DNA of 64,000 bases, taken from NCBI GenBank assembly GCA_017445755.1, contig JAFSSE010000041.1, positions 124,001-188,000 of the forward strand, written 5' to 3'. The DNA comes from Bacteroidales bacterium. Lineage in GTDB: Bacteria; Bacteroidota; Bacteroidia; Bacteroidales; UBA932. The notes beneath the pieces were generated by a model, which saw only the letters and a program-made list of their open reading frames with translations, did no database searches and was not told where the DNA came from. Positions 35,367 through 54,923 of this stretch are shown piece after piece (the stretch's first letter is position 1; every line of letters begins with the position of its first letter). Made by a program: the position numbers and the translations under genes.

Positions 35367-38300
35367 ATGATCAAAACATTCAAACGTTTGGCACTCGCAA
35401 TCATTACATTGTTTGCGGGTATTGTATCCTATGCCCAGGTGACTACGTCCGCCATTAACGGCCGTGTCGTCGACGCACAGGGCGCTCCTCTCGAAGGCGT
35501 GGCGGTCATCGCAAGCCACCTTCCTTCGGGTACCGTCTACGGCGCCATCACCAATTCCGATGGCCGTTATACCATCCAGGGTATGCGTAGCGGCGGCCCC
35601 TACAAGGTTGAAGTTTCCTGCCTCGGCTATCAGAGTGTCGAGTACACGGACATCACCCTGAAGCTCGCAGAAAGCTATGGCCTCAACGCCCAGCTGAGCG
35701 ACGCCAGCGAATTCCTCTCCGAAGCGAAGGTAATCGCCGCCCCGACCTCGAAGTTCGCCCTCGAGGAGAAGACCGGTGCGACGACCAACATCTCCAACGC
35801 GGACATTCTCACCCTTCCTTCGACGAGCCGCAGCATTACGGATATCGCTAAACTTTCCCCTTACGGCGGAAATGGAATGAACATCGCAGGTGGTGACGGC
35901 CGTAGCGCCAACTTCACCGTTGACGGTGCAAACTTCAACAACAACTTCGGTCTTTCTTCGACCCTCCCTGGCGGCGGTATGCCGATCTCCATGGACGCTA
36001 TCGAGGAAGTTCAGATCGTGGTTTCCCCGTTTGATGTCCGCCAGTCCAACTTCATCGGCGGCGGTGTCAACGCCATCACCAAGTCCGGTACCAACACCGT
36101 GAAGGGAACCGCCTATGTTTATCACCAGAACGGCAAGCTCCGCGGAACCTATGTCGATGGTGACGAGGTTACCCAGGACCGCGATGAGAAGGAAACTGTT
36201 TACGGTGCGACCGTCGGCTTCCCGATCCTGAAGAACAAACTCTTCTTCTTCGGAAGCTTCGAGTACACCTCGAACCCTACCATGCCTAACTACTGGCGTC
36301 CCTCCACGAACGGTGTGGCCGACAAGGATGCATACATCTCCCGTACGACCGTTGCCGACATGCAGAGAGTCTCCGACTTCCTGAAGAACACCTATGGCTA
36401 CGACACGGGCGGCTGGTCCAACTACGGAAAGACCGAGAGCAACCTCAAGCTCCTCGCCCGTATCGACTGGAACATCAGCCAGAAGCACCACCTCGCCTTC
36501 CGTTACAACTTTACGACGAACTCCTACTGGGTTGGAACGAACGGCTCTTCCGCCGACTTCAACGACCCGACCGGAATCAAGGGTACCCGTATGAGCTACA
36601 ACCGTCTCTCCCAGTACTCGATGGCCTTCGTCAATTCGATGTACTCGATGGAGAACAACGTCCACTCCTTCTCGTTCGACCTCAACAGCCGCCTCGGAGA
36701 CAACCTCTCCAACCAGCTCCTCGTTACCTGGTCCAACATTGAGGATGTCCGTGGTTCCGACTCCGACAAGTTCCCCTTCATCGACATCCTGAACGGTTAC
36801 ACCGGTTCCATCGCCGGCGGAGACCTCAAGCAGACCCTCGAGCCGTACATGGCTGCCGGTTATGAGCTCTTCACCTGGTACAACGGTGTCCACAACCGCG
36901 TTCTCAACGCCAAGGACGATATCACCTACTACGCAGGCGCCCACAAGCTTACCGCAGGTGCCAGCTTCGAGTATCAGTTCGCTGACAACGCTTACATGAG
37001 GGAAGGTACCGGATACTACCGCTTCCGCAGCGTTGACGACCTCCTGAACGGTGCAGCTCCTGAAACCGTCGCCCTTACCTATGGTTACGGCGGCAACGAG
37101 ACTCCTTCCGCACGTATCCGCTTCACTCAGGTCGGTCTCTATGGCCAGGATGAGTGGGATGTCAACGACAAACTGAAAGTGACTGCCGGTGTTCGTTTCG
37201 ACACGATTCTCTACAACAACGCCGACCTGATGACGAATAACGCCATCTATGCGGTTGACTTCGGCGGAAAGAAGCTCGATACCGGCAAGTGGCCTGCGAC
37301 CAATGTCCAGGTTTCCCCCCGTATCGGTTTTACCTATGACATCTTCGGTGACAAGTCGCTGAAGGTCCGCGGCGGTACCGGTCTCTTCGCCGGCCGTCTC
37401 CCGCTCGTTTACATGACGAACATGCCTTCGAACGCCGCCATGTTCCAGCATCTGTCCGTTATGACGACCCAGTACAACACCGACGGAACCATTGCCGCCC
37501 GCAACCCGAACCTCGACGCCTTTGCGGCGAGCGCCAACGGTGGCAAGTTCCCGACCGCTACTGCTGACATCCTCGCGAAGCTCAACAAGCTCGATCCGGC
37601 CAACAACCCGACCGACATCACTCCTAAGGACGGCGCCCTCCAGTCGACCGTCAACGGTGTGGACCCGAACTTCAAGATGCCTCAGGTATGGAAGACTTCC
37701 CTCGCCCTCGACATGCGTCTCCCTACCTCCTTCCCGTTCAGCATGACCGCCGAAGGAACCTTCAACAAGACCATCAACGGTACTCTTATCGCCAACTGGA
37801 ACAATACGGACAACACTACCTGGCCGACCTGGTCCGGTCCTGACAACCGTCACGTATATGGCACCTACAGCAACTACACCAAGTATCCTTGCTATGTGCT
37901 GACCAATACCAACAAGGGTTACGGTTGGATCTTCGTCCTCTCCGCCAGCGCAGAGCCGGTCAAGAACCTCAAGATCAACGCATCCTATACCCATACCGAG
38001 CAGTATGAGGTTACCGGTATGCCTGGTAACAACGCCGAGTCCGTGTTCACCGGTCTCCCGACCGTCGACGGCCCGAACTTCGCCGTTCTCCACGGTTCCC
38101 AGTATGTCCGTCCTGACCGCCTCATGGCCTCCGTTTCCTATCGTCTCCCGATCGGAACCACGCTCAGCGTCTTCTATCAGGGCTACACTCCTACCGGAAA
38201 CAGCTACCTCTATTCCAACGATGTCAATGGCGACGGTGTAAAGCAGGATCTTATCTATATCCCTGCCACCAAGGACGAAATCAAGTGGACCTCCGCTGCC

Positions 38301-38702
38301 GAAGCTGACAAGTTCTGGAACTTCCTCGAGCAGGATTCCTACCTCTCGACCCACAAGGGCCAGTATGCCGAGTCATACGCCGTCCACGCTCCGATGGTCC
38401 ACTATGTTGACCTCAGGGCTACCCAGGACTTCAAGATCCGCATCGGAAAGAGCGTCAATACACTCCAGCTCAGCTGCGACCTCATGAATGTTGGCAACCT
38501 CCTGAACAACAGCTGGGGCGCTATCAACATCTTCGACGAGAGCGTCAACGAAGGCCAGATCCTTACCATGGATCACCTTGAGAACGGCGAGCCCGTCTTC
38601 AAGACCAATTTCAAGGGTGACTCCCCCAAGACCTGGAACCACTCCCACTCCGTTGGCTCGCTGTGGTATCTCCAGCTTGGTCTCAAGTATATGTTTAATT
38701 AA
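35367..38702 (+). CDS. Oar-like TonB-dependent outer-membrane receptor with carboxypeptidase-regulatory domain
   Basis: The 1111-residue protein has a Sec signal (ending SYAQ, about residue 23) and a CarboxypepD_reg-like beta-sandwich at about 26-110, with INGRVVDAQGAPLEGVAV. The plug region contains GGDGRSANFTVDGANFNNNF and QIVVSPFDVRQSNFIGGGVN, characteristic of the OmpA-related/Oar group rather than SusC. The rest is a large barrel ending LQLGLKYMFN. Such receptors move large or unusual substrates, and some work with secreted proteins. It lies 14 bp upstream of a giant lipoprotein gene, its probable surface partner. Substrate unknown. Confidence 0.93.
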   Translation: MIKTFKRLALAIITLFAGIVSYAQVTTSAINGRVVDAQGAPLEGVAVIASHLPSGTVYGAITNSDGRYTIQGMRSGGPYKVEVSCLGYQSVEYTDITLKLAESYGLNAQLSDASEFLSEAKVIAAPTSKFALEEKTGATTNISNADILTLPSTSRSITDIAKLSPYGGNGMNIAGGDGRSANFTVDGANFNNNFGLSSTLPGGGMPISMDAIEEVQIVVSPFDVRQSNFIGGGVNAITKSGTNTVKGTAYVYHQNGKLRGTYVDGDEVTQDRDEKETVYGATVGFPILKNKLFFFGSFEYTSNPTMPNYWRPSTNGVADKDAYISRTTVADMQRVSDFLKNTYGYDTGGWSNYGKTESNLKLLARIDWNISQKHHLAFRYNFTTNSYWVGTNGSSADFNDPTGIKGTRMSYNRLSQYSMAFVNSMYSMENNVHSFSFDLNSRLGDNLSNQLLVTWSNIEDVRGSDSDKFPFIDILNGYTGSIAGGDLKQTLEPYMAAGYELFTWYNGVHNRVLNAKDDITYYAGAHKLTAGASFEYQFADNAYMREGTGYYRFRSVDDLLNGAAPETVALTYGYGGNETPSARIRFTQVGLYGQDEWDVNDKLKVTAGVRFDTILYNNADLMTNNAIYAVDFGGKKLDTGKWPATNVQVSPRIGFTYDIFGDKSLKVRGGTGLFAGRLPLVYMTNMPSNAAMFQHLSVMTTQYNTDGTIAARNPNLDAFAASANGGKFPTATADILAKLNKLDPANNPTDITPKDGALQSTVNGVDPNFKMPQVWKTSLALDMRLPTSFPFSMTAEGTFNKTINGTLIANWNNTDNTTWPTWSGPDNRHVYGTYSNYTKYPCYVLTNTNKGYGWIFVLSASAEPVKNLKINASYTHTEQYEVTGMPGNNAESVFTGLPTVDGPNFAVLHGSQYVRPDRLMASVSYRLPIGTTLSVFYQGYTPTGNSYLYSNDVNGDGVKQDLIYIPATKDEIKWTSAAEADKFWNFLEQDSYLSTHKGQYAESYAVHAPMVHYVDLRATQDFKIRIGKSVNTLQLSCDLMNVGNLLNNSWGAINIFDESVNEGQILTMDHLENGEPVFKTNFKGDSPKTWNHSHSVGSLWYLQLGLKYMFN

Positions 38703-38716
38703 TCACATAACCTGGC

Positions 38717-41700
38717 ATGAAACTTAACAGAATCATCCTCGGTATCTTCGCCGGCGCAGCCCTTCTCTGGGGCTGTCAGCCGGACAATGCCGTAAATGCG
38801 GGTGACGGTGTCATCACTGTCGACCCTTCAATCGTTGAGGCCGCCAGCGCCGGCGAGACCCTTACCCTTTCGGTAACGTCTTCCGAGGCCTGGACAGCCA
38901 AGAGTGAATCCGACTGGGTCACTATTTCTCCTGCAAGCGGAGCGGCTTCCGCATCTACCGTAAAAGTATCCGTAACCGTTGGGAAGAATCCCAATGAGAA
39001 GGCCCGTTCGGCTGAGATTACCTTTACCGCCGGTGCTTCCAAGAAGATTGTCTCCATTACCCAGAAAGCAGGCGGTATCGAATACGGTACGCTTGAAAAT
39101 CCTTATACCGTCGCAAAGGTTGTCGAATTCTGCGGCGACCTCGCTGACAAGACCCCGACCTCCGCGTCGTACTATGTAAAGGGTATCGTAAGCCAGGTTG
39201 TCGAGGAGTTCGGCACCCAGTATGGTAACGGTACCTTCTGGATTTCCGATGACGGATCCAGGGACGGTGCCCAGTTCGAGGCATACCGTATCCTCTACCT
39301 CGAGAATGAGAAATGGGCCCAGAAGCACGTTGACGCCAAGGCGAAGAATGTCGCCGTCGGTGATGTCGTCGTGATCTACGGTCCTGTCCAGAACTACGGC
39401 GGTACCCCTGAGACCGCTTCCGGCGCCTACCTCTATTCCATCGAGGAGGGAACCGCTCCGATTCTTTCATGCTCCAACGCCGAGCAGACTGTCGTCGCTT
39501 CCACGACCGAGGTGAAATTCACCATCACCCCCGCCAATGTCTCTGCTTGGACCGCAAAGGCGAAGGAGACCTATGACTGGGTCACCGACTTTACGAAGAG
39601 CGGTGAAGGTGAGTCCGACCTTACGGTCACCATCCAGCCGAATACCGGCACCGAGGCACGTACCGCTGTCTTTGTAGTCTCCGCTGAAGGTGCTGCCGAC
39701 ATCGAGGTCTCCCTGACCCAGGCCGCCCCGGCTGTCGCTACTACGGTTGCAGAGCTCGTCGCCCTCATTACCTCGACCGACAGCAAGAATCCTTCCGTCT
39801 ATGAGGCCAACATCCCGGAGACCGCTCCGATTGTCGTTTCCTATGTAAATGGCGGCAACGTCCATATGGAAGACGCTACCGGCGGTATCCTCTTATACAA
39901 GACCGACTCCGGCCTTGCCGCAGGCGACAAGATTTCAGGCAAGCTCTCAGGTACCGGTTATATCTTCAACGGCCTTCCCGAGATTACCGCATTGGGTGAT
40001 GCATATGTAAAGACCGCAGGTACCGATATCCCCGAGACCGTCGTTACCATCTCCGCCCTACTTACCGATTTCGATAAGTACATGAGCCGCCGCGTCAAAC
40101 TCGAGAACGTCACTGTGACGAAGGTTGTCGATGACGCCAACCGTACCGGCGAAGTCGCCCAGGGCGATGACAAGATCGCGGTCTATGCGGGTCTCAAGAA
40201 CTCCGGGCTCACCCTTGCCGAAGGCGCCACTGGCGACCTCATCTGCTTCCCTCATCCTTACAAGGACAGCAAGCAGGTCTACTTCTGGGACAACGCCGAC
40301 TTCTCCGGCGGAGCTACCAAGCTCACGACCATCAAGTCTGCTGACGACTGGGCCAAGTTCGCCGCAGCCGCAGCCGAGTATACCGCTGAAGAGACCGTCA
40401 CCCTTGCCGCTGACATTACCGTCACCGCACCGGTCGATACTCTCTTCTGCAACTTCGACGGTGGTAACCACACCGTTACCTACGCATTCACCGCCGGAGA
40501 AAACGACGGACTCAAGGATGCTTCAGGTAGTGTAATCGAAGGCAATGAGAAGAAAGCGAACCTCGGTCTTTTCCGCGTCGTAAAGAACGTCAAGGTCAGT
40601 AATGTAAAGACCGCCGGTTCCATTGCGTTCGCCCCCGCAGCCGGTTCCGGTACGTACCATATAGGCGGTATCGCCGGTATGGCTCGTGCGGGAGTTACCC
40701 TTGAGAACTGCGTGAACGGCGTCGACATCCTCGCCACTACAAAGGTTACCCACCACGAAGGCGGTATCATCGGTTACACCGAGCCCGCCGACGGCGCTCC
40801 GGTTAAAATCAGCGGCTGTACCAACAACGGTAAAGTCGAAATGGTTATTGACGGAGCTTCAAATGCTTCCCAGATCGGCGGTATTGTGGGCCATATCCAA
40901 CTCAGCGCCGATGTTCTCTCCTGCGTCAACAACGGAATTGTCAACTATACAGGTACCGGTACCCCCCGTATCGGCGGTGTGGTCGGCTATGCCAATTTCC
41001 CGACGGACATCAAGTTTGTCGACTGTATTAATAACGGAGCTGTTTCCTCGCTTGCCGTCGGAACATCTACGTCCACTTCTTATAGCTATGCAGGAGGTAT
41101 TTCCGGGTACTACGGAACCTCAACCGCAGATGGATATGCCGGAAGCGGCACCGTAGTTTATACCAACTGCGTCAACAACGGCGATATTACCATTGACTGC
41201 GGAACCGCTTCCACCAAATTCCGTAACCGCGCCGGCGGTATTGCCTCCCTGATTTCCTGCGGAACCGGAACGGCGACTCTGACCGGCTGCGAAAACAATG
41301 GTAAGATAAGTATCCTGAACGCCAAGGGTAACGGTGGCCACGCAGGTGGTATTGCGGGTTATGTTGAGTCCACATCAACAGCTACATTCGACTCCTGCAC
41401 CAACGACGCTACGATTATCAATGAAACAGGCAATTATGCCAACAGCAGCACCGCGGCGATTCTCGGATCCCTTGCGGCCAATGCCAACGATGCAACTCAC
41501 TCAGCTGTCAACTCCACGTTCAAGAATGTCAAGGTTACGGCTAACACTGTAATCAGCTCGACGACCGCCGGAGCAACTTCAAAGCTTGGCATCATCCTCG
41601 CTCCTCAGGTTGCAATCACAACCGATATGACCGGTGAAGTAGCCGCCTGCAAGATTATCCGCGGCGCAACTACGACCGAAATTACGGCTGAGAACTATCA

Positions 41701-43318
41701 GGATTACCTCGTTCAGGTCAAGGGCACAGCCAGCACCGCCGGCGTCACCTTCGCAGGTGCCTCCGAGCCGGCCGGCATCAAGACGGCAGCAGAGCTCCTC
41801 GCCTACCTTGCCAATCCGACTGAGGATCAGGTAATTGGAAAGGACATCGATATGACCGGTGTAACCGTCGTTCCCGCGACTGATTTCACCTTCACTCTCG
41901 ATGGCCAGAACCATTCTATCAAGGGGCTCAGCGGTTCCCAGCCGCTCTTCCTCAAGAACAGCGGTACCATTAAGAACATCGTTACCGAAGGCGCACTTAC
42001 CCCTTCAGACAAAGAATTCGCCGTTATCGCCAAGGAGAACGCCGGAACCATCGAGAACGTAGTCAACAAGGCCACTGTCACCTATTCAATCGGGGCGGCT
42101 GAGGACTATATCCTTATGGCAGGTATCGCAGCCAAGACCTCTGGTACGATCAAAGACTGCGTCAACGAAGGTGCTGTCACTATCACTTCCACGAGCTCTG
42201 TCAAGGGTGTCGGTCTCGGCGGTATCGTGGCTTATCAGGATGCCGCGGTTTCCGGCTGCGTCAATAAGGGTGACATTTCCCTTTCCGCAGTGAACGTCTC
42301 CGCGAAGTCTACGGTTTATGACGCCTCAGGTGTCCTTCCCAATATCGGAGGTGTTGCCGGTTTGGGCGGAAAGACCGGATTTGCTCTTACGGACTGCGAG
42401 AACTACGGAAAGGTCAGCTACTCCCTGTCCGGAGCGGATGTCGACCTTACAGCCAACCTCAACCGCAACCAGATTGGTGGCGTTGTCGGTGGTCCTGTAG
42501 GCCCTGTAACCGGCTGCAAGAACTTCGGCGAGGTCAACGTTTCCCTCAAGCACAGTACTCCCGGTACAGGGCTCGGCAAAGAGATGATTGTCAATGTCGG
42601 CGGTATCGGCGGCGGCGACTATCTGTTTACCAGCACTAGCGGAACCTTCGCCAATACGAGCTACACGAACTGCGTCAATGAGGGTAATGTTACTGTAGAC
42701 AGCGACGCCTCCGCTTCCAACTCTGCCATCGGCGGTATCGTCGGATGGCCTGGCCAGGAGAAAGCCATTACCGACATTAAGACCAGCGGATGCACCAATA
42801 AGGGTACTATTACCGGACGGGGTGCAATGAAGTGCCGTCTTGGCGGTATCCAGGGCGGAACCGGCGTTATCGAGAACTGTGTAAACGAGGGTAATATCGT
42901 CCTCGAGTCCGGCAATGTCGCTTCCGCAATCGGCTCTGTCGCCGGTTTCCATTCCCAGGGTCACGCCCTCACCGGCAGTAAGGCCGGCGGAAAGGTCGAG
43001 GCCAAGGTTGAACTCACAGGCGGATGCGGCGGCCTGATCGGCAACATCGGAAATGCCGCCCATACGACCGGCGAGGGCTGCGAGGTTAATGCAGAAATCG
43101 TCATGGCAACGCCGGATGCGACGACAACCGGTCTTGTTGTAGGAAAGTTCAACGGTAATACCAAGGCAATCACGCTCGGAACGGCTGAGAGCCCCATCAA
43201 GGTCTCCGGATCCGTCAACGGAACTGCCGTAACTGCTGATAATTACGCCAGCTACCTTTATGGTTCTGCTAATTACACCGCCGGAACCCACGTTATCAAC
43301 GCTGTCTTCGGCAATTAG
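38717..43318 (+). CDS. Giant multidomain surface lipoprotein (BACON, OB-like, GLUG-like repeats)
   Basis: The 1533-residue lipoprotein (LLWGC, Cys 20) shows, in order: a BACON module (about 33-118), an OB-like module like those at 43707 (about 120-246, YYVKGIVSQV then VAVGDVVVIYGPVQNYGG), a second BACON module (to about 335), another OB-like region (about 340-525), and then roughly 1000 residues of repeats. The repeats follow the pattern GGI(V/A)G, a short spacer, then C-x-N-x-G-x-(I/V), like the GLUG motif, and should form a beta-helix or solenoid stalk. No catalytic residues are recognisable. With the Oar-like receptor just upstream it probably forms a surface binding and uptake or adhesion unit. 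Confidence 0.88.
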   Translation: MKLNRIILGIFAGAALLWGCQPDNAVNAGDGVITVDPSIVEAASAGETLTLSVTSSEAWTAKSESDWVTISPASGAASASTVKVSVTVGKNPNEKARSAEITFTAGASKKIVSITQKAGGIEYGTLENPYTVAKVVEFCGDLADKTPTSASYYVKGIVSQVVEEFGTQYGNGTFWISDDGSRDGAQFEAYRILYLENEKWAQKHVDAKAKNVAVGDVVVIYGPVQNYGGTPETASGAYLYSIEEGTAPILSCSNAEQTVVASTTEVKFTITPANVSAWTAKAKETYDWVTDFTKSGEGESDLTVTIQPNTGTEARTAVFVVSAEGAADIEVSLTQAAPAVATTVAELVALITSTDSKNPSVYEANIPETAPIVVSYVNGGNVHMEDATGGILLYKTDSGLAAGDKISGKLSGTGYIFNGLPEITALGDAYVKTAGTDIPETVVTISALLTDFDKYMSRRVKLENVTVTKVVDDANRTGEVAQGDDKIAVYAGLKNSGLTLAEGATGDLICFPHPYKDSKQVYFWDNADFSGGATKLTTIKSADDWAKFAAAAAEYTAEETVTLAADITVTAPVDTLFCNFDGGNHTVTYAFTAGENDGLKDASGSVIEGNEKKANLGLFRVVKNVKVSNVKTAGSIAFAPAAGSGTYHIGGIAGMARAGVTLENCVNGVDILATTKVTHHEGGIIGYTEPADGAPVKISGCTNNGKVEMVIDGASNASQIGGIVGHIQLSADVLSCVNNGIVNYTGTGTPRIGGVVGYANFPTDIKFVDCINNGAVSSLAVGTSTSTSYSYAGGISGYYGTSTADGYAGSGTVVYTNCVNNGDITIDCGTASTKFRNRAGGIASLISCGTGTATLTGCENNGKISILNAKGNGGHAGGIAGYVESTSTATFDSCTNDATIINETGNYANSSTAAILGSLAANANDATHSAVNSTFKNVKVTANTVISSTTAGATSKLGIILAPQVAITTDMTGEVAACKIIRGATTTEITAENYQDYLVQVKGTASTAGVTFAGASEPAGIKTAAELLAYLANPTEDQVIGKDIDMTGVTVVPATDFTFTLDGQNHSIKGLSGSQPLFLKNSGTIKNIVTEGALTPSDKEFAVIAKENAGTIENVVNKATVTYSIGAAEDYILMAGIAAKTSGTIKDCVNEGAVTITSTSSVKGVGLGGIVAYQDAAVSGCVNKGDISLSAVNVSAKSTVYDASGVLPNIGGVAGLGGKTGFALTDCENYGKVSYSLSGADVDLTANLNRNQIGGVVGGPVGPVTGCKNFGEVNVSLKHSTPGTGLGKEMIVNVGGIGGGDYLFTSTSGTFANTSYTNCVNEGNVTVDSDASASNSAIGGIVGWPGQEKAITDIKTSGCTNKGTITGRGAMKCRLGGIQGGTGVIENCVNEGNIVLESGNVASAIGSVAGFHSQGHALTGSKAGGKVEAKVELTGGCGGLIGNIGNAAHTTGEGCEVNAEIVMATPDATTTGLVVGKFNGNTKAITLGTAESPIKVSGSVNGTAVTADNYASYLYGSANYTAGTHVINAVFGN

Positions 43319-43341
43319 TACTTCACTGTAAAGTTTTTTAA

Positions 43342-43368
43342 GGGTGGCCGATTCGGTCACCCTTTTTT
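43342..43368 (+). terminator. Intrinsic terminator after the giant lipoprotein gene
   Basis: GGGTGGCC (43342-43349) pairs with GGTCACCC (43355-43362) with one G-T pair and a 5-nt loop, followed by six T residues. Confidence 0.85.
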
Positions 43369-43643: not shown

Positions 43644-43651
43644 TATATTTG
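43644..43651 (+). promoter_or_regulatory. Probable -7 element of the OB-module/nuclease operon
   Basis: TATATTTG matches TAnnTTTG exactly, 55 bp upstream of the ATG at 43707. No clear -33 TTTG is present. Confidence 0.55.
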
Positions 43652-43706
43652 CATGATATGGGACAGAATTGACGAAGAGAAGATAACAAAAATAATATCA
43701 AATAAA

Positions 43707-45641
43707 ATGAAAACAAGAAGTTTGCTGCTGATGGCCCTGACGCTGGTGCTGAGCGTCTCCTGCGACCTCCTGTCGCAAAACGAAGAAGACTTCGGGGAAG
43801 CCGATATCCAGGTGAATCCGACGACCCTCTCCTTCGACCAGGGAGTTTCTTCAAGGACAGTTACAATCCTTGCGACCCGCCCCTGGCAGGCGGAATTCAG
43901 CGAAAGCTGGATTGCGGTTGATCCCGCCAAGGGCCCTGCATCCCTGTCAGGACAGGAAATTACCATTACAGTCCTCGAGAACAAATCCGTCGAGCGCACG
44001 GGGAAGGTCGTCTTCAACGCCGGTATTGTCAGCGCATCGCTGACCCTTACCCAGCCGGGCGACGGAAGCCAGGGAAACGGCTCCGCGGAGAGTCCCTATA
44101 CGGTAAATGCCGCCATGGAGATTATCTCAGGGATGAATTCGTCCGAAAGCAAGACCGTCTATGTCAAGGGTAAGGTTTCGAAACTTGGAGAGTTCGGCGG
44201 ATCCTACGGGAACTATACCTACTATATTTCCGACACTGACTCGACAAGGACCAACCTCGAGGTGTACCGCGGGTATGGACTCAATAAGGCGAAATTCACC
44301 TCGGCTGACGACCTGAAACTCGGAGACGAAGTCGTAGTCTACGGAGATGTCGTAAACTTCAAGGGGAACACTCCCGAATTCACTTCCGGAAGCCAGCTCG
44401 TTTATCTCAACGGGCAGACGGCGCCCATCGTCGAAGAGACTCCTGGAACGCCCGAAGGCGCGGGAACTGCCGAGAGCCCCTTCAATGTAGCCGCAGCAAT
44501 CGCCAAGTGCCAGGAAATCGGAACGACCGCATCGACGGACAAGTACTATGTCAAGGGCATCGTGACCGGCTCAAACGGCATCGACGCGTCCTGGGGCAAT
44601 GCAACCTTCTATATCAAGGATGCGAACGCCACCGCGACCTTCTATATCTATCGCTGCTTCTCCTTCGACGGGGCTCAGTTTACGACAAACGATGTCTTCA
44701 AGGAAGGTGACGAGGTCGTCGTCTGCGGTCCTCTCGTAAACTATCAGGGCAACACTCCCGAGATGACTACCGGCGGATTTCTCGTCACGGTCAACGGTGC
44801 CGGAGCTCCCGAGCCCGTGGTCGGTACGCCGGAGGGCAGCGGAACGGCAGAGAGCCCCTTCAATGTCTCCGCGGCAATCGCAAAGGCAAAGGAGACCGGC
44901 GAAACCGAGACTACGGATTCCTACTATGTCAAGGGAACGATTAAGGGCAGCATTGACCTCAGCGCGACGAACGGCAATGTTTCCTTCAATATTACCGACG
45001 GGGGAGAAACGACGGCTGTGTTCAGGATCTTCCGCGCGGTCGGCTTCGGCGGCGCCGCCATGGTCGGTGATGAAATCATCAAGGAAGGCGACGAGGTCGT
45101 AATCTGCGGAAAGATTGTCAATTATCAGGGTAAGACCCCCGAAACGGCCCAGGGTGCATCTTTCGTCTCGATTAACGGGAAGACCGAATTCGAGAGGAAG
45201 GAAACCGAGCCGGTTACGGGAGATGCCGCTGAGTTCGCGAGTAATATTTCCTTCTCGGCCGGGACCAATGCCTATACCGAGAAAGCGACAGTGAACGGAA
45301 TTGCCGACGTAGTTGTATATAAGCTCGGAAAGAGCTCGGCTGCCGGCGAGGCGACCGTAACGATTCCTGCAGGAACGAAGTCCATCTCCTTCTATGGAGT
45401 CTCCTGGAAGGCCAAGGAAGCGACCCTGGATATCAAGATTGGCGGATCTTCGGTCTATACCCAGGCGCTTGCCGCCAACGAAGGCGCCTCCAACAACTCC
45501 CCGTATACTCTGACGGTAACCTCTTCCGACAAGTACACGTACGCTTTTGACACCGCGCTCACCGAAGCGGTTACGGCGACAGTGACGACCACTGGGACCA
45601 ATACCCGTGTCATCCTCTTCGGCATTCAGGCCGCCAAGTAG
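43707..45641 (+). CDS. Surface lipoprotein with BACON module and three tandem OB-like modules
   Basis: The ATG at 43707 gives an SPII signal (LSVSC); in-frame codons from 43653 have no such role. The 644-residue product has a BACON-type domain (about 28-125) and then three copies of a module of about 115-125 residues. Each opens with (G/S)AESP(F/Y)(T/N)V and contains YVKG, YYI or FYI and then GDEVVV(Y/C)G followed by VNYQGNTPE. Similar modules are found in DUF5689-type and YhcR-type nucleic-acid-binding OB folds. A C-terminal beta-sandwich (about 510-644) follows. First gene of an operon with two nuclease-like proteins and a TonB receptor. Nucleic-acid binding is inferred. Confidence 0.85.
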   Translation: MKTRSLLLMALTLVLSVSCDLLSQNEEDFGEADIQVNPTTLSFDQGVSSRTVTILATRPWQAEFSESWIAVDPAKGPASLSGQEITITVLENKSVERTGKVVFNAGIVSASLTLTQPGDGSQGNGSAESPYTVNAAMEIISGMNSSESKTVYVKGKVSKLGEFGGSYGNYTYYISDTDSTRTNLEVYRGYGLNKAKFTSADDLKLGDEVVVYGDVVNFKGNTPEFTSGSQLVYLNGQTAPIVEETPGTPEGAGTAESPFNVAAAIAKCQEIGTTASTDKYYVKGIVTGSNGIDASWGNATFYIKDANATATFYIYRCFSFDGAQFTTNDVFKEGDEVVVCGPLVNYQGNTPEMTTGGFLVTVNGAGAPEPVVGTPEGSGTAESPFNVSAAIAKAKETGETETTDSYYVKGTIKGSIDLSATNGNVSFNITDGGETTAVFRIFRAVGFGGAAMVGDEIIKEGDEVVICGKIVNYQGKTPETAQGASFVSINGKTEFERKETEPVTGDAAEFASNISFSAGTNAYTEKATVNGIADVVVYKLGKSSAAGEATVTIPAGTKSISFYGVSWKAKEATLDIKIGGSSVYTQALAANEGASNNSPYTLTVTSSDKYTYAFDTALTEAVTATVTTTGTNTRVILFGIQAAK

Positions 45642-45642
45642 T

Positions 45643-46809
45643 ATGAAACGCCATCTCAGCTTGCTGTTTTCCCTCTTTATCGGGGCCGTTCTCTCCGGCG
45701 GGTGCTTTGCACCTTCCGGGGATGCGGAGACGGTAGAGTTGTCCTCTCCGGGAGGATACTCACTTTCCCAAAAGGGTGGAAGCATGTTCCTTTCCGTCTC
45801 GTCGAACGCCAGCTGGACCCTTGAAATCGTCTTCGAGGGCGAGGATGAGGGCTGGGCGGAGATTACCCCTTCCTCCGGCACCGGAGACAAGTCGAGCATA
45901 GTCCTCTCCTGGAAGACCAACAATTCTGACAGCGAGCGCTCGTTCCGTGTTGTCGCTTCGACAAAGTCGGTTACCCCCACGGAAGGAGTCCTGTTTACCC
46001 AGGTCGGCCCTTCCCGGCCGGTAAACCATGACGGCACATCGACGAAGGCCGGATGGCTGGAGCTCCCTGAAACGAAGGATGGAGACGGGTTGGATTTCTT
46101 TGTCCATGACATGCCCCTCGGCGGCCAGACGGTCCGGAATTACTCCTTCTACTGGGACTATGACGCCCTTGTGGCCCACTGGGTAGCGTATCCGCTGAAC
46201 AAGGGGCTTTACGGGAGCGGTACCCGTTCGGATGCATGGGCCCTCGACCCGCTGATTCCCGAGGCGGGACAGCCGGTCCTTTTCAAGGGCTTCCAGGAGA
46301 GCGGTACATATGCCCGCGGCCACCAGCTTCCTTCGGCCCACCGGCTGAACTACCAGGCCAATATCCAGACCTTCTACGGGACGAACATGACCCCGCAGCG
46401 TCATACCTTCAACGAAGGGATCTGGGCAACCCTGGAGGCGAGGGTCAAGGACTGGAGCTCCTCCTGCGATACTCTCTACTGCGTCACCGGCTGCGACCTC
46501 AAAGGCAGTACGCAGTACGCCCATGACAACTACGGCTCGCCGGTTGCGATTCCGACGGCCTACTGGAAGGCCTGTCTCCGTTACAGCAGCGCCGGAACCG
46601 TCGGCTTCAACGGCTACTCCGCCTGCGCCTTCTACCTCAAGCACGACTACAGCGGAAGTTCGCTGACTTCCTCTATGGCCATTTCCATCGACGAACTTGA
46701 AGAAATCCTCGGAATAGACCTCTTTGTGAACCTCCCCTCGAAAGTCGGCGCCGAAACGGCTGCGAAGATAGAAAGCCAGAATCCGTCTTCGGTTTCCCTC
46801 TGGTGGTGA
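45643..46809 (+). CDS. DNA/RNA non-specific endonuclease lipoprotein (NUC1 family) with BACON module
   Basis: The ATG at 45643 follows the previous stop by 1 bp and gives an SPII signal (SGGC, Cys 21). The 388-residue protein has a BACON-like domain (about 30-122) and a NUC1 nuclease domain. The DRGH motif appears as YARGHQLPSAHR (Arg 225, His 227 as general base), with Ala in place of the usual Asp. The metal-binding Asn is present in TNMTPQ (Asn 248), and a matching helix follows (GIWATLEARVKDW). It should cut DNA and RNA outside the cytoplasm, anchored in a membrane. Co-transcribed with an OB-module lipoprotein, an EEP nuclease or phosphatase and a TonB receptor. Confidence 0.92.
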   Translation: MKRHLSLLFSLFIGAVLSGGCFAPSGDAETVELSSPGGYSLSQKGGSMFLSVSSNASWTLEIVFEGEDEGWAEITPSSGTGDKSSIVLSWKTNNSDSERSFRVVASTKSVTPTEGVLFTQVGPSRPVNHDGTSTKAGWLELPETKDGDGLDFFVHDMPLGGQTVRNYSFYWDYDALVAHWVAYPLNKGLYGSGTRSDAWALDPLIPEAGQPVLFKGFQESGTYARGHQLPSAHRLNYQANIQTFYGTNMTPQRHTFNEGIWATLEARVKDWSSSCDTLYCVTGCDLKGSTQYAHDNYGSPVAIPTAYWKACLRYSSAGTVGFNGYSACAFYLKHDYSGSSLTSSMAISIDELEEILGIDLFVNLPSKVGAETAAKIESQNPSSVSLWW

Positions 46810-46833
46810 TTCTTTGAAAACAAACCCTGACAA

Positions 46834-47910
46834 ATGAAACGAATACTAACCGCACTCCTCGCCCTTCTGTTTCTTTCCGCCCCCTTCTCGGATGCGGAGA
46901 AGCGGACTTACGTGATCGGGTTCTACAATCTTGAGAACCTGTTCGATACCTACCACGACGACGGGAAGAACGACTACGAGTACCTCCCGGACGGAGCAAA
47001 CCAGTGGACAGAGGCGAAATATCGGAAGAAACTCCGGAACATGGCCCATGTCATCGCCGAGATGAAAAAGGACAACGGTCGCTGGCATACCGTTCTCGGT
47101 GTCAGCGAGATTGAGAACCGCCATGTCCTCGAAGACCTCGTAATGGAATCGGAAATCGCCGAAGCGAACTACCAGATTGTCCATTATGACGGTCCGGACC
47201 GCCGAGGTGTCGATGTCGCCCTCTTATACAAGCCCGACCAGATGACCCTTGTCGAGAGCGAGTCCATCCCCTTCGACTTCAATTCCAGCAAAATCCGCTT
47301 CGATATGACGAAGGAGGATATGGATTATTTCCGCACCCGCGACATCCTGATGGTCCATGGCATCATCGACGGCGAGCACTTCGCCTTCTATGTCTGCCAC
47401 CTTCCCTCCCGCCTCGGCGGCAAGGGGCAGGACCTCCGCGCCCGCGGCGGGGAAATCATCTATGAGCACTCGATGAAGATGATGAAAAAGTACCCCGGAA
47501 TCAAGTGCGTGGTCATGGGCGACATGAACGACAACCCGACGGACGAATCCATGGCCGTCTATCTCCGCGGCAGGGAAAAACTCTCCCAGGTCGGCCCGGA
47601 GGACTATTTCTCGCCTTTTCTGTCCATGCTGAAGGCGGGCTACGGCTCCCTTGCGTACAGGGGCGAATGGAACATCTACGACTGCATCCTTGTGAATTAC
47701 GCCCTCGCCCACCCGGACAAGGGGACCTTCCAGATCATGCCGATTATAAAGAAGAAAAAGCATAAATACTACGGCCGCATATTCTCGAAACCCTTCATGA
47801 CCAACCAGTCCGGCCAGTATAAGGACACCCCTTTCAGGACCTTCTCCAACGGGGCCTTCGTCGGGGGCTATTCTGACCATTATCCTACGTATATTGTTAT
47901 CAGTAAATAA
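46834..47910 (+). CDS. Exported endonuclease/exonuclease/phosphatase (EEP) family protein
   Basis: The 358-residue protein has a Sec signal without a lipobox (MKRILTALLALLFLSAPFSDA). The EEP metal-dependent catalytic set is visible: GFYNLENLFD (Asn), GVSEIENRHV (Glu), DRRGVDVALLY, HLPSR, GDMNDNPTDES (Asp, Asn) and a C-terminal SDHYPTYIV (Asp, His). Family members are DNases, nucleases or phosphodiesterases acting on nucleic acids, lipids or inositol phosphates. Next to a NUC1 endonuclease, an exported exonuclease or nucleotide phosphatase is the best guess. Its stop abuts the next ATG, so translation is coupled. Confidence 0.92.
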   Translation: MKRILTALLALLFLSAPFSDAEKRTYVIGFYNLENLFDTYHDDGKNDYEYLPDGANQWTEAKYRKKLRNMAHVIAEMKKDNGRWHTVLGVSEIENRHVLEDLVMESEIAEANYQIVHYDGPDRRGVDVALLYKPDQMTLVESESIPFDFNSSKIRFDMTKEDMDYFRTRDILMVHGIIDGEHFAFYVCHLPSRLGGKGQDLRARGGEIIYEHSMKMMKKYPGIKCVVMGDMNDNPTDESMAVYLRGREKLSQVGPEDYFSPFLSMLKAGYGSLAYRGEWNIYDCILVNYALAHPDKGTFQIMPIIKKKKHKYYGRIFSKPFMTNQSGQYKDTPFRTFSNGAFVGGYSDHYPTYIVISK

Positions 47911-50883
47911 ATGAAAGCGAGATTATTCCTTCTTTCTCTTCTCGTAGCTTTCGCCGCTGTTCCCCGGATTTCGGCCCAGGAACTTACCGGCGGGGTCAAG
48001 GGAACGGTCATAAACCGCACCGACCGCACGGCGGTGGAGAACGCCCGTCTGGTACTTTACCAGGGGGCGACCGAGGTTGCAGAGGTACGTTCTTCCTCAG
48101 ACGGCAGCTTCTATATCCCCCGGCTTGACAACGGGATGTATACTCTCTCGATTTATTCCGAAGAGTTTCTCGAAACCCAGGTCCAGGTAACCGTCAACGA
48201 CGGATATGTCAAGAACATGTTCAACATCGGCCTCACCCCGGCACGGAAAGTTTCCGAGGTCGTTGATGAAAGCTTGGCGGAGTTCGACATGGACGACAGC
48301 GGGTATAACGACAACCCGACCGTCCTTTTCGGCTCCAATGACGTGTTCTCCAACATCGTCGGCTACAACTTCTCCTCCGTACGTTTCCGCCAGAGGGGTT
48401 ATCTCGGTGAATCCCAGGATGTTCTCCTTGCCGGAGTAAAGATGAACGACGCTATTACGGGCTACTCTCCCTTCAGCTTGTGGAGCGGACTTAACGAGGC
48501 GATGCGTTCCAAGGATGCGACCCTCGGAAACGACGCCCTGGATTACGGGCTGGGCGGTTACAACGGCATCACCAATATTTACGGGAACGCCTCTTCTGTC
48601 CGTAAGGGACTCAGGGGAAGCGTCTTGACCAACAGCGCCCTCTACCGGCTCCGCCTCATGGCTTCCTATGCGACGGGTGTCATGGACAACGGCTGGTCCT
48701 TCGCGGCCAACGTCTCCGCCCGACTCGGCGGAAACGACTGGATAGACGGTGTTTACTACCGCTCCTTCGCATACTACCTCGCCGCGGACAAGCAGCTTGA
48801 CGAGAAGAACCGTATCGGCTTTGTCTTCTTTGCCACCCCCGGGCAGCGCGGCGCCCAGAACGCCTCGACCCAGGAGGTATATGACCTCATCGGAGACAAC
48901 ATGTATAACTCCAACTGGGGTTATCAGAACGGGGTTGTCCGTAACGCCCGCGTCCGCAAGACCAATGAGCCGGTCGCGATTCTCCGCTACGACTATACCC
49001 CTACGGACAATTTCCAGGCGGGAGCGACCCTCCTCTACCGCTTCGGCAAGAACGGCTACACCGCCCTCGACTGGTATGATTCCGCAGATCCCCGTCCGGA
49101 TTACTACCGCAATCTCCCGAGCTACTTCAACATGGACAACGACGACCTCAACCGGAGCAATTACACCAAGGCCGGCTGGGCCCGCGAGGCATGGACCCAC
49201 CCGTCCCTCTACCCGGACATCGTCCATGTCAACTGGGACCGCCTCTATACGGTCAACTCGATGAACTATGACACCTATGGCTCGACGAGCGGAAACCGCT
49301 CCAAATATGTCCAGGAGGAGCGTCATGTTGACCAGAGGGACCTTAATTTCGCGGCCAATTTCAAGTGGCGCCCCAACGCCGAAACAATCATAACTGGCGG
49401 TGCCAACGCGAAAATCAACCGTACCGAGAACTATAAGATCATCGCCGACCTCCTCGGAGGCGACTACTATGTCAATATCGACAACTTTGCCGACCGCGAC
49501 TACGGTTCCACTCCTGCGAAGGTCCAGAATGACCTCGACTACTATATGGCCAACGGCTCGGCTGAGGTCCTCCATGTAGGCGACAAGTACGGTTACGACT
49601 ATCTTGCACAGATCCGCAAAGGTGAGGTATGGGCGAACGGAGTTTTCTCCCGCGGAAACCTTTCCACCACCGTCGGCGCCCGCCTCGGAGTCGAGAGCTT
49701 CTGGAGGGAAGGCCTGATGAGGAAGGGACTTTTCCCGGGTGTGGATGACAACGGGAACGCCTTTGTGGTGGACGGGGTCGCCCTGGATGTCGCAAAGGAC
49801 CATAACGGAGAGGTCATTACCTCCTACGGGAAGTCCAAGGTCGCTACCTTTGTGACCGGCGCCTTCAAACTCGGACTCAACTACGTCCTCGGCGGAAACC
49901 AGAGGGTTTACGCCAATGCCGGCTGGTTCCGCGACGCCCCGAAGTTCAACCAGGTTTTCCTCTCCCCGAGGACCCGGAACTCCATGATGGACGAGCTTAA
50001 GCCGGTAAGGACTGCCGCCTACGATATCAACTGGCAGTTCACGGGAGGCGGTTACAACGCCCGCGTAACGGCTTACTACACGTCGATAAAGGACCAGTCC
50101 AAGGTCATGAGCGCCTATGACGACCTCCAGAACGCCTTCTCGAACTTCGCCCTCACGGGAATCGACGAGCGCCATGTCGGCGTGGAGGTCGGCGTCAAGG
50201 TTCCGACCCCCGTCCCGTCCCTCTTCGTCCAGGGAGCCCTCAGCGCAGGTCGCTATGTCTATACGTCCAATCCGTATATGACTCAGACGGTTGACAACAG
50301 CGCCGACCTCGTTATCGACAACGCCCTCGTTCCCTACTGGAAGGAGACCCCGGTTTACGTGAAGGACGCTTCCGGGAACTACCAGACGAACGCCTCCGGT
50401 GAGTTTACGAAGAAGGTGTCCGGCTTCCAGGAGCACTATGTCCCTTCGACCCCTCAGCTGGCTGCGAGCATCGGCCTTTCCTACAACTGGAACTACTGGT
50501 TCATCGACGCCGACATCCAGTATTTTGCCGAGTCATACCTCGACATGAACCCGCTCTACCGCACCGACTATGCCGTTGCGGGACCGGACGGAATAGTCTC
50601 GCCGGTTGAGGTCGAGTACATGACCTCCCAGGAGAAGTTCGATCCCGCCTGCCTCCTCAACCTCTCGGTCGGCAAGTCCTGGTACATCCAGCGGAAGTAC
50701 CAGCTCGGCTTCTCGCTCAACGCACGGAACCTCCTCAACAACACCTCGGTGAAGACCGGTGGTTATGAGCAGACCCGTATCGTTGACAATACCGTCAATA
50801 AGGAACGTTACTATCGGTTTGACCCGAAGTATTTCTATATGAGCGGTTTCAATTATATGTTGAACATCTATTTCAGATTCTAG
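47911..50883 (+). CDS. TonB-dependent outer-membrane receptor with carboxypeptidase-regulatory domain
   Basis: The 990-residue protein has a Sec signal (cleaved near SAQ, about residue 24) and a regulatory-like beta-sandwich (about 28-110) with GGVKGTVINRTDRTAVENAR. The plug-like region contains VLFGSNDVFSNIVGYNFSSV and VLLAGVKMNDAITGY, and the barrel ends MLNIYFRF. It is not a SusC protein: the DEVVV signature is absent and no SusD follows. Its operon mates are nuclease-like lipoproteins and OB-module proteins, so the imported substrate may be oligonucleotides, nucleotides or phosphate-containing fragments. That assignment is inference. Confidence 0.93.
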   Translation: MKARLFLLSLLVAFAAVPRISAQELTGGVKGTVINRTDRTAVENARLVLYQGATEVAEVRSSSDGSFYIPRLDNGMYTLSIYSEEFLETQVQVTVNDGYVKNMFNIGLTPARKVSEVVDESLAEFDMDDSGYNDNPTVLFGSNDVFSNIVGYNFSSVRFRQRGYLGESQDVLLAGVKMNDAITGYSPFSLWSGLNEAMRSKDATLGNDALDYGLGGYNGITNIYGNASSVRKGLRGSVLTNSALYRLRLMASYATGVMDNGWSFAANVSARLGGNDWIDGVYYRSFAYYLAADKQLDEKNRIGFVFFATPGQRGAQNASTQEVYDLIGDNMYNSNWGYQNGVVRNARVRKTNEPVAILRYDYTPTDNFQAGATLLYRFGKNGYTALDWYDSADPRPDYYRNLPSYFNMDNDDLNRSNYTKAGWAREAWTHPSLYPDIVHVNWDRLYTVNSMNYDTYGSTSGNRSKYVQEERHVDQRDLNFAANFKWRPNAETIITGGANAKINRTENYKIIADLLGGDYYVNIDNFADRDYGSTPAKVQNDLDYYMANGSAEVLHVGDKYGYDYLAQIRKGEVWANGVFSRGNLSTTVGARLGVESFWREGLMRKGLFPGVDDNGNAFVVDGVALDVAKDHNGEVITSYGKSKVATFVTGAFKLGLNYVLGGNQRVYANAGWFRDAPKFNQVFLSPRTRNSMMDELKPVRTAAYDINWQFTGGGYNARVTAYYTSIKDQSKVMSAYDDLQNAFSNFALTGIDERHVGVEVGVKVPTPVPSLFVQGALSAGRYVYTSNPYMTQTVDNSADLVIDNALVPYWKETPVYVKDASGNYQTNASGEFTKKVSGFQEHYVPSTPQLAASIGLSYNWNYWFIDADIQYFAESYLDMNPLYRTDYAVAGPDGIVSPVEVEYMTSQEKFDPACLLNLSVGKSWYIQRKYQLGFSLNARNLLNNTSVKTGGYEQTRIVDNTVNKERYYRFDPKYFYMSGFNYMLNIYFRF

Positions 50884-50887
50884 GGCC

Positions 50888-51967
50888 ATGAGAAAGTTCT
50901 TTTTTGCATCCATCGCCGCCCTTGTGGCGCTTGTCTCCTGCGAAGAGTGGGAGCCGGTAATGACCCTTTCATACGATGAGCCCGAGGCCTTTGTTCCGGT
51001 TGACATGGATGACCAGGTCAACATGTCCATCGCGGAGCTGAAGGCCAAATACCCCGGCCATGGAACCCCTCTCGAGATTACCGAGAACTGGATTATCAAG
51101 GGCCAGGTCATTTCCTCGGACAAGTCCGGCAACGTCTACCGCGAGCTCTATATCCAGGATGCGACCGGCGGAATCGACGTGAAGGTCGGGAAGTCCTCTA
51201 TGTACAACGACTATAAGGAAGGCCAGTGGATCTACGTCAAGTGCCGCGACCTCACCCTCGGCGAGTATGGCTACAAGAGCGGGAATTACGGCGGGGACGG
51301 CATGCTCCAGCTGGGCATGGCCGATCCGACCGGCTCCTATGAAACGGCCTACATCGACGTGCAGCTCCTGATTGACCGCCATATTTTCCGCGGCAAGGTC
51401 GACACCCCCGTCACCCCGACGGTCCTCACCGAGAACCAGGTTTCCGACAGCCGCTATGACGGCACCCTCGTGACGCTCAAGGGGCTGAAATTCGCCGATG
51501 AGCAGTTCGCCCTCGTCTATGTCTCTTCCGCCCTTGACACCAAGGCCGCCAACAACCGCGTTTTCCTCTCCGACAAGAACTGGGGCATCACCACCTGGGC
51601 CTTCTCGAAGAACAAGTTCCTCGAGTATATCAACTCCGGAATCTGGGATACCGCCACCGTCGGCAGCGGAAATGAGAATTACGGGGCCATCACCGGCAAG
51701 GCGACGGCCATCGAAGGCAAGGACGCCGTCCATACCTATAAGGAACTGATGATTGCAAACGCCGCCGCGAACTCCGTCAGCCAGTACTTCAAGATGGGTT
51801 CCACGGAGATTCAAATCCGCACGAGCGGCTACTCACGCTTCTCCGACACCGAAATCGACCCTGCAATCCTCTCCGGAGCGAAGACCATCGACGTAACCGG
51901 TATCCTGACCCGCTACCAGGGCGCCGCACAGTTCACCCTCCTGGACCTCGACGGGGTGGTGTATTGA
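50888..51967 (+). CDS. DUF5689-like OB-fold lipoprotein
   Basis: The 359-residue lipoprotein (LVSC, Cys about 18) has a DUF5689-type arrangement: a leader region with MSIAELKAKYPGHG, then the first OB-like part WIIKGQVISSDKSGNVYREL followed by QDATGGIDVKVG and GQWIYVKCRDL. A second OB-like part follows with NQVSDSRYDGTLVTLKGLKF. The C-terminal GAKTIDVTGILTRYQGAAQF resembles a third. The family is common next to TonB receptors and nucleases in Bacteroidota, and its role is not established. The gene ends the plus-strand operon 4 bp after the receptor gene. It probably acts as surface partner of that receptor. Confidence 0.88.
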   Translation: MRKFFFASIAALVALVSCEEWEPVMTLSYDEPEAFVPVDMDDQVNMSIAELKAKYPGHGTPLEITENWIIKGQVISSDKSGNVYRELYIQDATGGIDVKVGKSSMYNDYKEGQWIYVKCRDLTLGEYGYKSGNYGGDGMLQLGMADPTGSYETAYIDVQLLIDRHIFRGKVDTPVTPTVLTENQVSDSRYDGTLVTLKGLKFADEQFALVYVSSALDTKAANNRVFLSDKNWGITTWAFSKNKFLEYINSGIWDTATVGSGNENYGAITGKATAIEGKDAVHTYKELMIANAAANSVSQYFKMGSTEIQIRTSGYSRFSDTEIDPAILSGAKTIDVTGILTRYQGAAQFTLLDLDGVVY

Positions 51968-51996: not shown

Positions 51997-52110
51997 AATA
52001 AGGTCTCTGGTGCTACTGAACGTACACGTTTTTGACCTATTTTGTGCACGTCAAGTACCATTAGAACGTTTTCATGGGCACCGCTGCTGGCGGAAGGGCA
52101 AAAATAAGGT
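51997..52110. repeat. Possible small palindromic insertion with 8-bp direct repeats
   Basis: AATAAGGT occurs at 51997-52004 and 52103-52110, exactly 106 bp apart. Between them lies a small imperfect palindrome: GGTGC at 52009 pairs with GCACC ending at 52082, extended by TGAA/TTCA matches. Inside it is a hairpin ACGTACAC (52020-52027) / GTGCACGT (52044-52051). The second direct repeat is the first arm of the terminator hairpin. It could be an inserted element with target duplication. It is not the same sequence as the 106-bp REP-like copies. Confidence 0.4.
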
Positions 52111-52130
52111 GACCAGGCGGTCACCTTATT
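52103..52130. terminator. Bidirectional intrinsic terminator
   Basis: A perfect 12-bp stem AATAAGGTGACC (52103-52114) / GGTCACCTTATT (52119-52130) with a 4-nt loop lies between two convergent operons. It is followed by TCTTT on the plus side and preceded by AAAA, which reads as T on the minus side. Confidence 0.85.
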
Positions 52131-54901: not shown

Positions 54902-54923
54902 GTTATTATTATGGTTAATCATA

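Follow-up and report, generated by a model that had tools for sequence, protein, structure and literature searches.

Five tightly spaced genes on the plus strand, here called C to G, occupy positions 43707-51967 of a 64,000-nucleotide stretch of the Bacteroidales contig JAFSSE010000041.1 (hereafter, the window), and together they probably encode an outer-membrane importer of nucleic acids. In the proposed mechanism, the surface lipoproteins C and G, with their OB folds, would retain DNA or RNA on the outer face of the cell; D, a NUC1 nuclease, would cut the captured nucleic acid there; F, a TonB-dependent receptor, would draw it across the outer membrane; and E, a member of the EEP family, would act on it in the periplasm. 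Sequence comparison gives good support to nucleic acid as the substrate, because F and G are homologous to a gene pair required for natural transformation in Riemerella anatipestifer, because EEP is linked to this pair, and because NUC1 and Endonuclease I nucleases occur near it in separate branches. The same three lines of evidence, the first resting on the available part of PMC8459023, favor the capture, cutting, and import that had been proposed for this cluster from its DNA alone (the original prediction). All five open reading frames (ORFs) that it described are present where it placed them, and their families are confirmed:

43707-51967, plus strand: operon C-D-E-F-G, five tightly spaced ORFs
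43707..45641, plus strand: gene C, predicted lipoprotein of 644 amino acids with BACON and three OB-like modules
44079..44462, plus strand: OB-like module 1 of C (amino acids 125-252), 58/129 identical to module 2
44463..44840, plus strand: OB-like module 2 of C (amino acids 253-378), from Pfam and module alignment
44841..45215, plus strand: OB-like module 3 of C (amino acids 379-503), 61/113 identical to module 2
45643..46809, plus strand: gene D, predicted lipoprotein of 388 amino acids with a DNA/RNA non-specific endonuclease domain (amino acids 155-366)
46834..47910, plus strand: gene E, exported EEP-family protein (PF19580) of 358 amino acids
47911..50883, plus strand: gene F, predicted TonB-dependent receptor of 990 amino acids with an N-terminal PF13620 domain, homolog of RA0C_RS04915
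50888..51967, plus strand: gene G, predicted DUF5689 lipoprotein of 359 amino acids with an OB-like fold, counterpart of RA0C_RS04920

Natural transformation of R. anatipestifer ATCC 11845 fell below detection when either RA0C_RS04915 or the adjoining RA0C_RS04920 was removed by markerless deletion; the former is a PF13620 protein predicted to lie in the outer membrane, and the latter a DUF5689 protein (PMC8459023). The available part of that paper also reports that the genome lacks detectable pilus homologs, and it credits Flavobacterium johnsoniae with homologs of the transformation proteins. One of its statements describes homologs of both pair members as widely distributed in Bacteroidetes, while another confines the RS04915 homolog to Flavobacteriaceae; the paper itself describes its uptake model as speculative and states that how double-stranded DNA becomes single-stranded is unknown. 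In the same species, tonBA and tonBB mutants showed lowered transformation, and iron acquisition was lost in tonBB but not in tonBA, which the authors offer as the explanation for the drop in tonBB (PMC8383284, available part).

The strain compared here by name is not ATCC 11845 but R. anatipestifer CCUG25054 (locus L167), found via a Riemerella-like locus (L153, genome G345) with which it shares 93% identity in F. At L167, genes for ComEC, a 145-amino-acid protein, a carboxyl transferase, and EEP are followed by F and G on the opposite strand, a layout that fits the tags RS04895, 04900, 04905, 04910, 04915, and 04920; the DUF5017 match given for RS04920 (PMC8459023, available part) was not seen in the L167 G protein at E ≤ 0.01. 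The window F aligns with that of L153 over its whole length (27% identity, E = 1e-90), G over 149 amino acids (30%, 3e-14), and E with the L153 EEP protein (29%, 7e-58). In a tree of F proteins (47 rows), the window and R. anatipestifer fall within a group of 39 F proteins with an SH-like approximate likelihood ratio (SH-aLRT) support of 100. Eight rows had been set apart beforehand as paralogs, chosen for low profile score or second-copy status; seven of these lie on the opposite side of the tree, and the eighth (L157) nests inside, on an end branch of 2.81. These data indicate that F and its R. anatipestifer counterpart share an origin separate from that of other family members, and that F-G corresponds to RA0C_RS04915/RS04920 in both the type of pair and the order of its genes.

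Matches to F at E ≤ 0.001 were found in 102 of 296 genomes sampled across the phylum, 51 inside the class of the window and 51 outside it. Because the outside matches are weak (best 5.5e-16), the F family appears to be class-wide; the outside matches are probably paralogs. Within a sample of the order, 201 of 295 genomes had matches (weak ones counted), as did 118 of 120 genomes from the family of genome G281 when queried with that family's own F. Gene neighbourhoods were compared in 121 loci: the window, 40 from the phylum sample (mostly stronger hits, plus three deliberately weak ones, L072-L074), 60 from the stronger hits of the order sample, and 20 from G281's family, chosen partly for small genome size. 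The set is not random, and many of its loci are related.

Neighbourhood statistics, one of the checks suggested with the original prediction, show a conserved linkage. Of the 120 loci in which a gene follows F, 113 have G in that position and on the same strand (the other seven being L037, L073, L074, L133, L134, L150, and L157), and DUF5689 was matched in all 51 G proteins scanned. EEP is the gene immediately 5' of F in at least 82 of 116 loci, 76 of them divergent and six co-directional (the window, L035, L036, L087, L088, and L089); this count is a lower bound, as at L108 the ORF picker took antisense ORFs where a PF19580 gene sits divergently just 5' of F. Of the 34 loci with another gene in that position, 16 were judged by size and first residues alone, without a profile search, and no nuclease was recognised in these 16; L100 and L117 have no upstream gene.

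Nuclease genes accompany the pair in several branches. NUC1 genes, each confirmed as PF01223, lie within four genes of F in 10 of the 121 loci; in the F tree, eight of these loci form a single clade (SH-aLRT 100), with L129 and L130 in a neighbouring clade. Endonuclease I is encoded two or three genes 3' of F in L092, L094, and L140 and directly 5' of F in L130, loci that fall on different branches, L130 and L140 within one larger clade. A Pfam scan of 33 downstream genes (of 81 listed) recovered three Endonuclease I and three Endonuclease_NS genes. At L130 (8125-9600, 9837-10694) both nuclease families occur together, a divergent NUC1 gene lying beyond the Endonuclease I gene.

The order lipoprotein-D-E-F-G recurs in the five loci nearest to the window in the F tree (L035, L036, L087, L088, and L089), so that the operon is not a chance arrangement. 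The first gene of each is C-like by position; by Pfam it carries BACON and/or DUF5689 in L036, L087, L088, and L089, and in L035 only a sub-threshold BACON match (0.006). Besides its co-directional EEP gene, L035 keeps a divergent one 5' of its C-like gene. In a tree of EEP proteins, this divergent copy groups with the divergent EEPs that adjoin F, and the E proteins encoded co-directionally with F make up a single clade (SH-aLRT 95). The two EEP genes of L035 and their placement in the tree suggest that C, D, and E were inserted between an old divergent EEP gene and F-G. EEP would be an old partner of F-G, and C and D would be later additions within this branch of the order.

Gene D matches Endonuclease_NS (PF01223) at E = 2.8e-32 (112.6 bits against a curated cut-off of 23). 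The catalytic motif of this family is DRGH; D has ARGH at amino acids 224-227 (RGH at 225-227) and NMTPQ at 248-252. Among proteins of solved structure, D scores best against secreted nucleases of bacteria, for example, the Serratia extracellular endonuclease. Gene E matches Exo_endo_phos_3 (PF19580) at E = 3.2e-88 (296.2 bits, curated cut-off 27), and its YNLEN, EIEN, HLPS, GDMND, and SDH motifs fit the N/E/H/D-N/DH set of EEP proteins; a sequence search of the PDB with E returned no match at E ≤ 0.01. E may trim or dephosphorylate fragments, as originally proposed. Gene F has no Pfam barrel or Plug match at E ≤ 0.1; the structure predicted for it is matched by TonB-dependent receptors (best E = 8.4e-22), and on this model F is a receptor of that type. 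The proposal that it is not SusC is borne out, as Pfam matched SusD, Plug, or TonB_dep_Rec in none of the five proteins at E ≤ 0.1 and no SusC/SusD pair is recognised among them. No carbohydrate-active enzyme was matched among the five. Gene G matches DUF5689 at E = 1.2e-45.

For C, Pfam returns BACON along with the OB-fold matches tRNA_anti_2 (2.1e-9) and tRNA_anti-codon (2.2e-7). The three tandem OB-like modules first read in this lipoprotein are recovered by pairwise alignment (identities 41/117, 58/129, and 61/113), with scores of 188-312 compared with about 31 for shuffles; in a PDB sequence search with C, the only match was to a glycoside hydrolase chain, in its N-terminal part, which contains BACON. 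Judged by eye, the N-terminal segments of C, D, and G each run to a cysteine whose surroundings resemble a lipobox (a lipobox regular expression matched G alone, not C or D), and those of E and F are plain signal sequences. Alternative starts exist for C (an earlier ATG at 43653) and D (GTG at 45607); the starts at 43707 and 45643 yield clean signal sequences.

The genome that contains the window (2.18 Mb, 83% complete) encodes two PF19580 proteins, two PF01223 proteins, and four DUF5689 stretches in three proteins, and the operon holds one protein from each of these families. Six genomes of the operon lineage have one to three NUC1 matches each, one of which is inside the operon. The families are not common in 14 control genomes (DUF5689 in 2, PF01223 in 4, PF19580 in 2). 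One of the two controls in which the DUF5689 model scored above its cut-off is Bacillus subtilis, far outside Bacteroidota. A separate locus, L245 (G000:C12:46000-60000), carries a SusC/SusD pair and, after it, two large proteins (815 and 829 amino acids) that combine BACON with DUF5689.

What the cell would do with imported nucleic acid admits more than one answer. Natural transformation, with C and G capturing DNA, D acting as entry nuclease, F importing, E helping to produce single-stranded DNA, and the remaining steps falling to ComEC, DprA, and an HhH protein, draws on the essential role of the F and G relatives in R. anatipestifer (PMC8459023, available part) and on the presence of ComEC, DprA, and HhH families in all nine genomes checked, that of the window included. 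We consider it rather unlikely as the use of this operon. Those three families carry little weight alone, being present in 10, 11, and 11 of the 14 controls, E. coli among them. ComEC is short in the window's genome (356 amino acids), in its genus mate G417 (373), and in G534 of a further genus (365); in all three, DUF4131 was not matched, and the protein ends near position 232-237 of the 270-position Competence model. DUF4131 is kept in the ComEC of R. anatipestifer L167 and of G596, a genome guessed to be Porphyromonas-like. Among 58 genomes of the family with a ComEC match, 33 frames are ≤530 amino acids and 22 are ≥650, with two between and one fragment; these lengths were counted by hand, and contig ends and stops may shorten some frames. 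A non-specific nuclease at the surface would also shred donor DNA, and in the Riemerella-like locus L153, where Endonuclease I was not sought, the four genes to either side of F gave no match to the NUC1 profile. Short-ComEC loci of the window's lineage are L231 (G000:C29), L232, and L233; at L234 (G631:C1:1123000-1130000), an inserted ORF of 387 amino acids, transposase-like by eye, interrupts ComEC and leaves it as two ORFs. A possible association of short ComEC with the NUC1 operon was abandoned, since G230 and G238 have the operon plus ComEC ORFs of 731 and 701 amino acids.

Feeding alone, in which the operon would be a nucleic-acid counterpart of a Sus system yielding nucleotides, nucleosides, and phosphate, comes close to an even chance. 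A surface nuclease and OB lipoproteins stand alongside a TonB-dependent receptor here, Endonuclease I lies near F-G in other branches, and a member of the Bacteroidota, Lutibacter, takes carbon from DNA (PMC8289736, available part). Proteins of the 5'-nucleotidase family occur in all nine genomes (two matches in the window's own) but also in 10 of the 14 controls, and none of the five operon proteins matched a nucleoside transporter or catabolic family in Pfam. The only tested relatives of F-G are, moreover, transformation genes. Of the original prediction, import is well supported, and the feeding role in its "nucleic-acid parallel to a Sus system" is a possible one: F-G, with or without EEP, is class-wide, and its tested relative serves transformation. 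The surface nuclease and the shortened ComEC of this lineage nevertheless lean towards feeding (on phosphate and nucleosides), which seems to have a slight edge over transformation as the principal use, and both may hold. Defence or biofilm control, in which the nucleases would clear extracellular or phage DNA and the receptor would import something else, is a role that surface nucleases could play; it leaves the class-wide F-G pair and the R. anatipestifer phenotype unexplained and, on an assessment that included no search of the PADLOC library, is highly improbable. As to specificity, two other DUF5689 proteins of the same genome adjoin a SusC/SusD pair, so that DUF5689 alone is no marker of DNA.

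The five genes of the putative importer probably form a single transcription unit, with gaps of 1, 24, 0, and 4 bases at C/D, D/E, E/F, and F/G. The consensus of the Bacteroidetes -7 element is TAnnTTTG. Flanking features are as follows:

35367..43318, plus strand: neighbouring unit A-B, where A is an OMP_b-brl_4 receptor and B a BACON lipoprotein with one C-type OB module
43340..43364, plus strand: hairpin and T-run 3' of upstream gene B, read from the sequence; folding energy of a 45-base stretch, -18.2 kcal/mol
43644..43651, plus strand: TATATTTG, a match to TAnnTTTG, 56 bases 5' of the start of C
52103..52130, plus strand: 12-pair hairpin with a T-rich tail 3' of G, from a pattern scan

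The hairpin at 43340..43364, which the pattern scan for terminators missed, is likely an intrinsic terminator dividing unit A-B from C-G, and that at 52103..52130 is likely the terminator of the operon; the scan returned 7 terminator-like sites compared with a shuffle mean of 9.2, that is, no excess. Whether unit A-B belongs to the C-G system is uncertain; in the same-genus locus L087, an A-like receptor gene lies 187 bases 5' of the C-like gene. B (38717-43318), directly 3' of receptor A, is a lipoprotein of 1533 amino acids with BACON, GLUG-like repeats (by eye), and an OB module that begins at 39086 and is 50/127 identical to module 1 of C. On the minus strand, 52133-54922 encodes a 929-amino-acid protein that scores 32.1 bits against DUF4886 (cut-off 26.7) and in which GLUG-like repeats can be seen by eye.

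The component families were already known, and the core pair F-G has a single experimental precedent. A search of listings and abstract openings found no earlier description of the operon, and nothing on DUF5689 was found beyond PMC8459023, the literature covered being without bioRxiv and most subscription papers. As far as this search shows, the reach of the receptor family well beyond Flavobacteriaceae, its EEP partner, and an operon adding a surface nuclease and an OB-repeat binder are novel. We tentatively propose, at somewhat less than even confidence, that F-G is a class-wide, TonB-powered, pilus-free gate for DNA polymers with EEP as its ancestral partner, to which separate lineages added NUC1, Endonuclease I, and OB lipoproteins. 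Such a gate would be unlike the pilus-based DNA-uptake channels of Gram-negative bacteria, and here it would have been converted into a machine that digests DNA at the surface and imports it. The proposal concerns how DNA crosses the outer membrane in Bacteroidota with no detectable uptake pilus, as well as gene transfer and the nutritional use of DNA in a phylum common in guts and the sea. The linkage names EEP as a candidate nuclease partner, and lineages are now identified in which genes for capture, cutting, and import lie in one testable cluster.

Three known systems resemble the operon in part. D falls in the same Pfam family (PF01223) as EndA, the pneumococcal DNA entry nuclease; unlike EndA, it is a predicted lipoprotein of a Gram-negative bacterium, and the solved relatives with the best scores are secreted nucleases. 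With Sus-type systems, the operon shares a TonB-dependent receptor with an N-terminal carboxypeptidase-regulatory-like domain beside a lipoprotein and a surface enzyme, but no SusD member or carbohydrate-active enzyme was matched in it, and its enzymes belong to nuclease families. The R. anatipestifer pair likewise consists of a PF13620 outer-membrane protein followed by DUF5689, with full-length homology in F, placement in the same clade, and EEP adjoining F. The window differs from it in the modest identity of F (27%), in a co-directional EEP, in a ComEC gene located on a different contig, and in having two added lipoproteins, one a NUC1 nuclease and the other with three OB modules.
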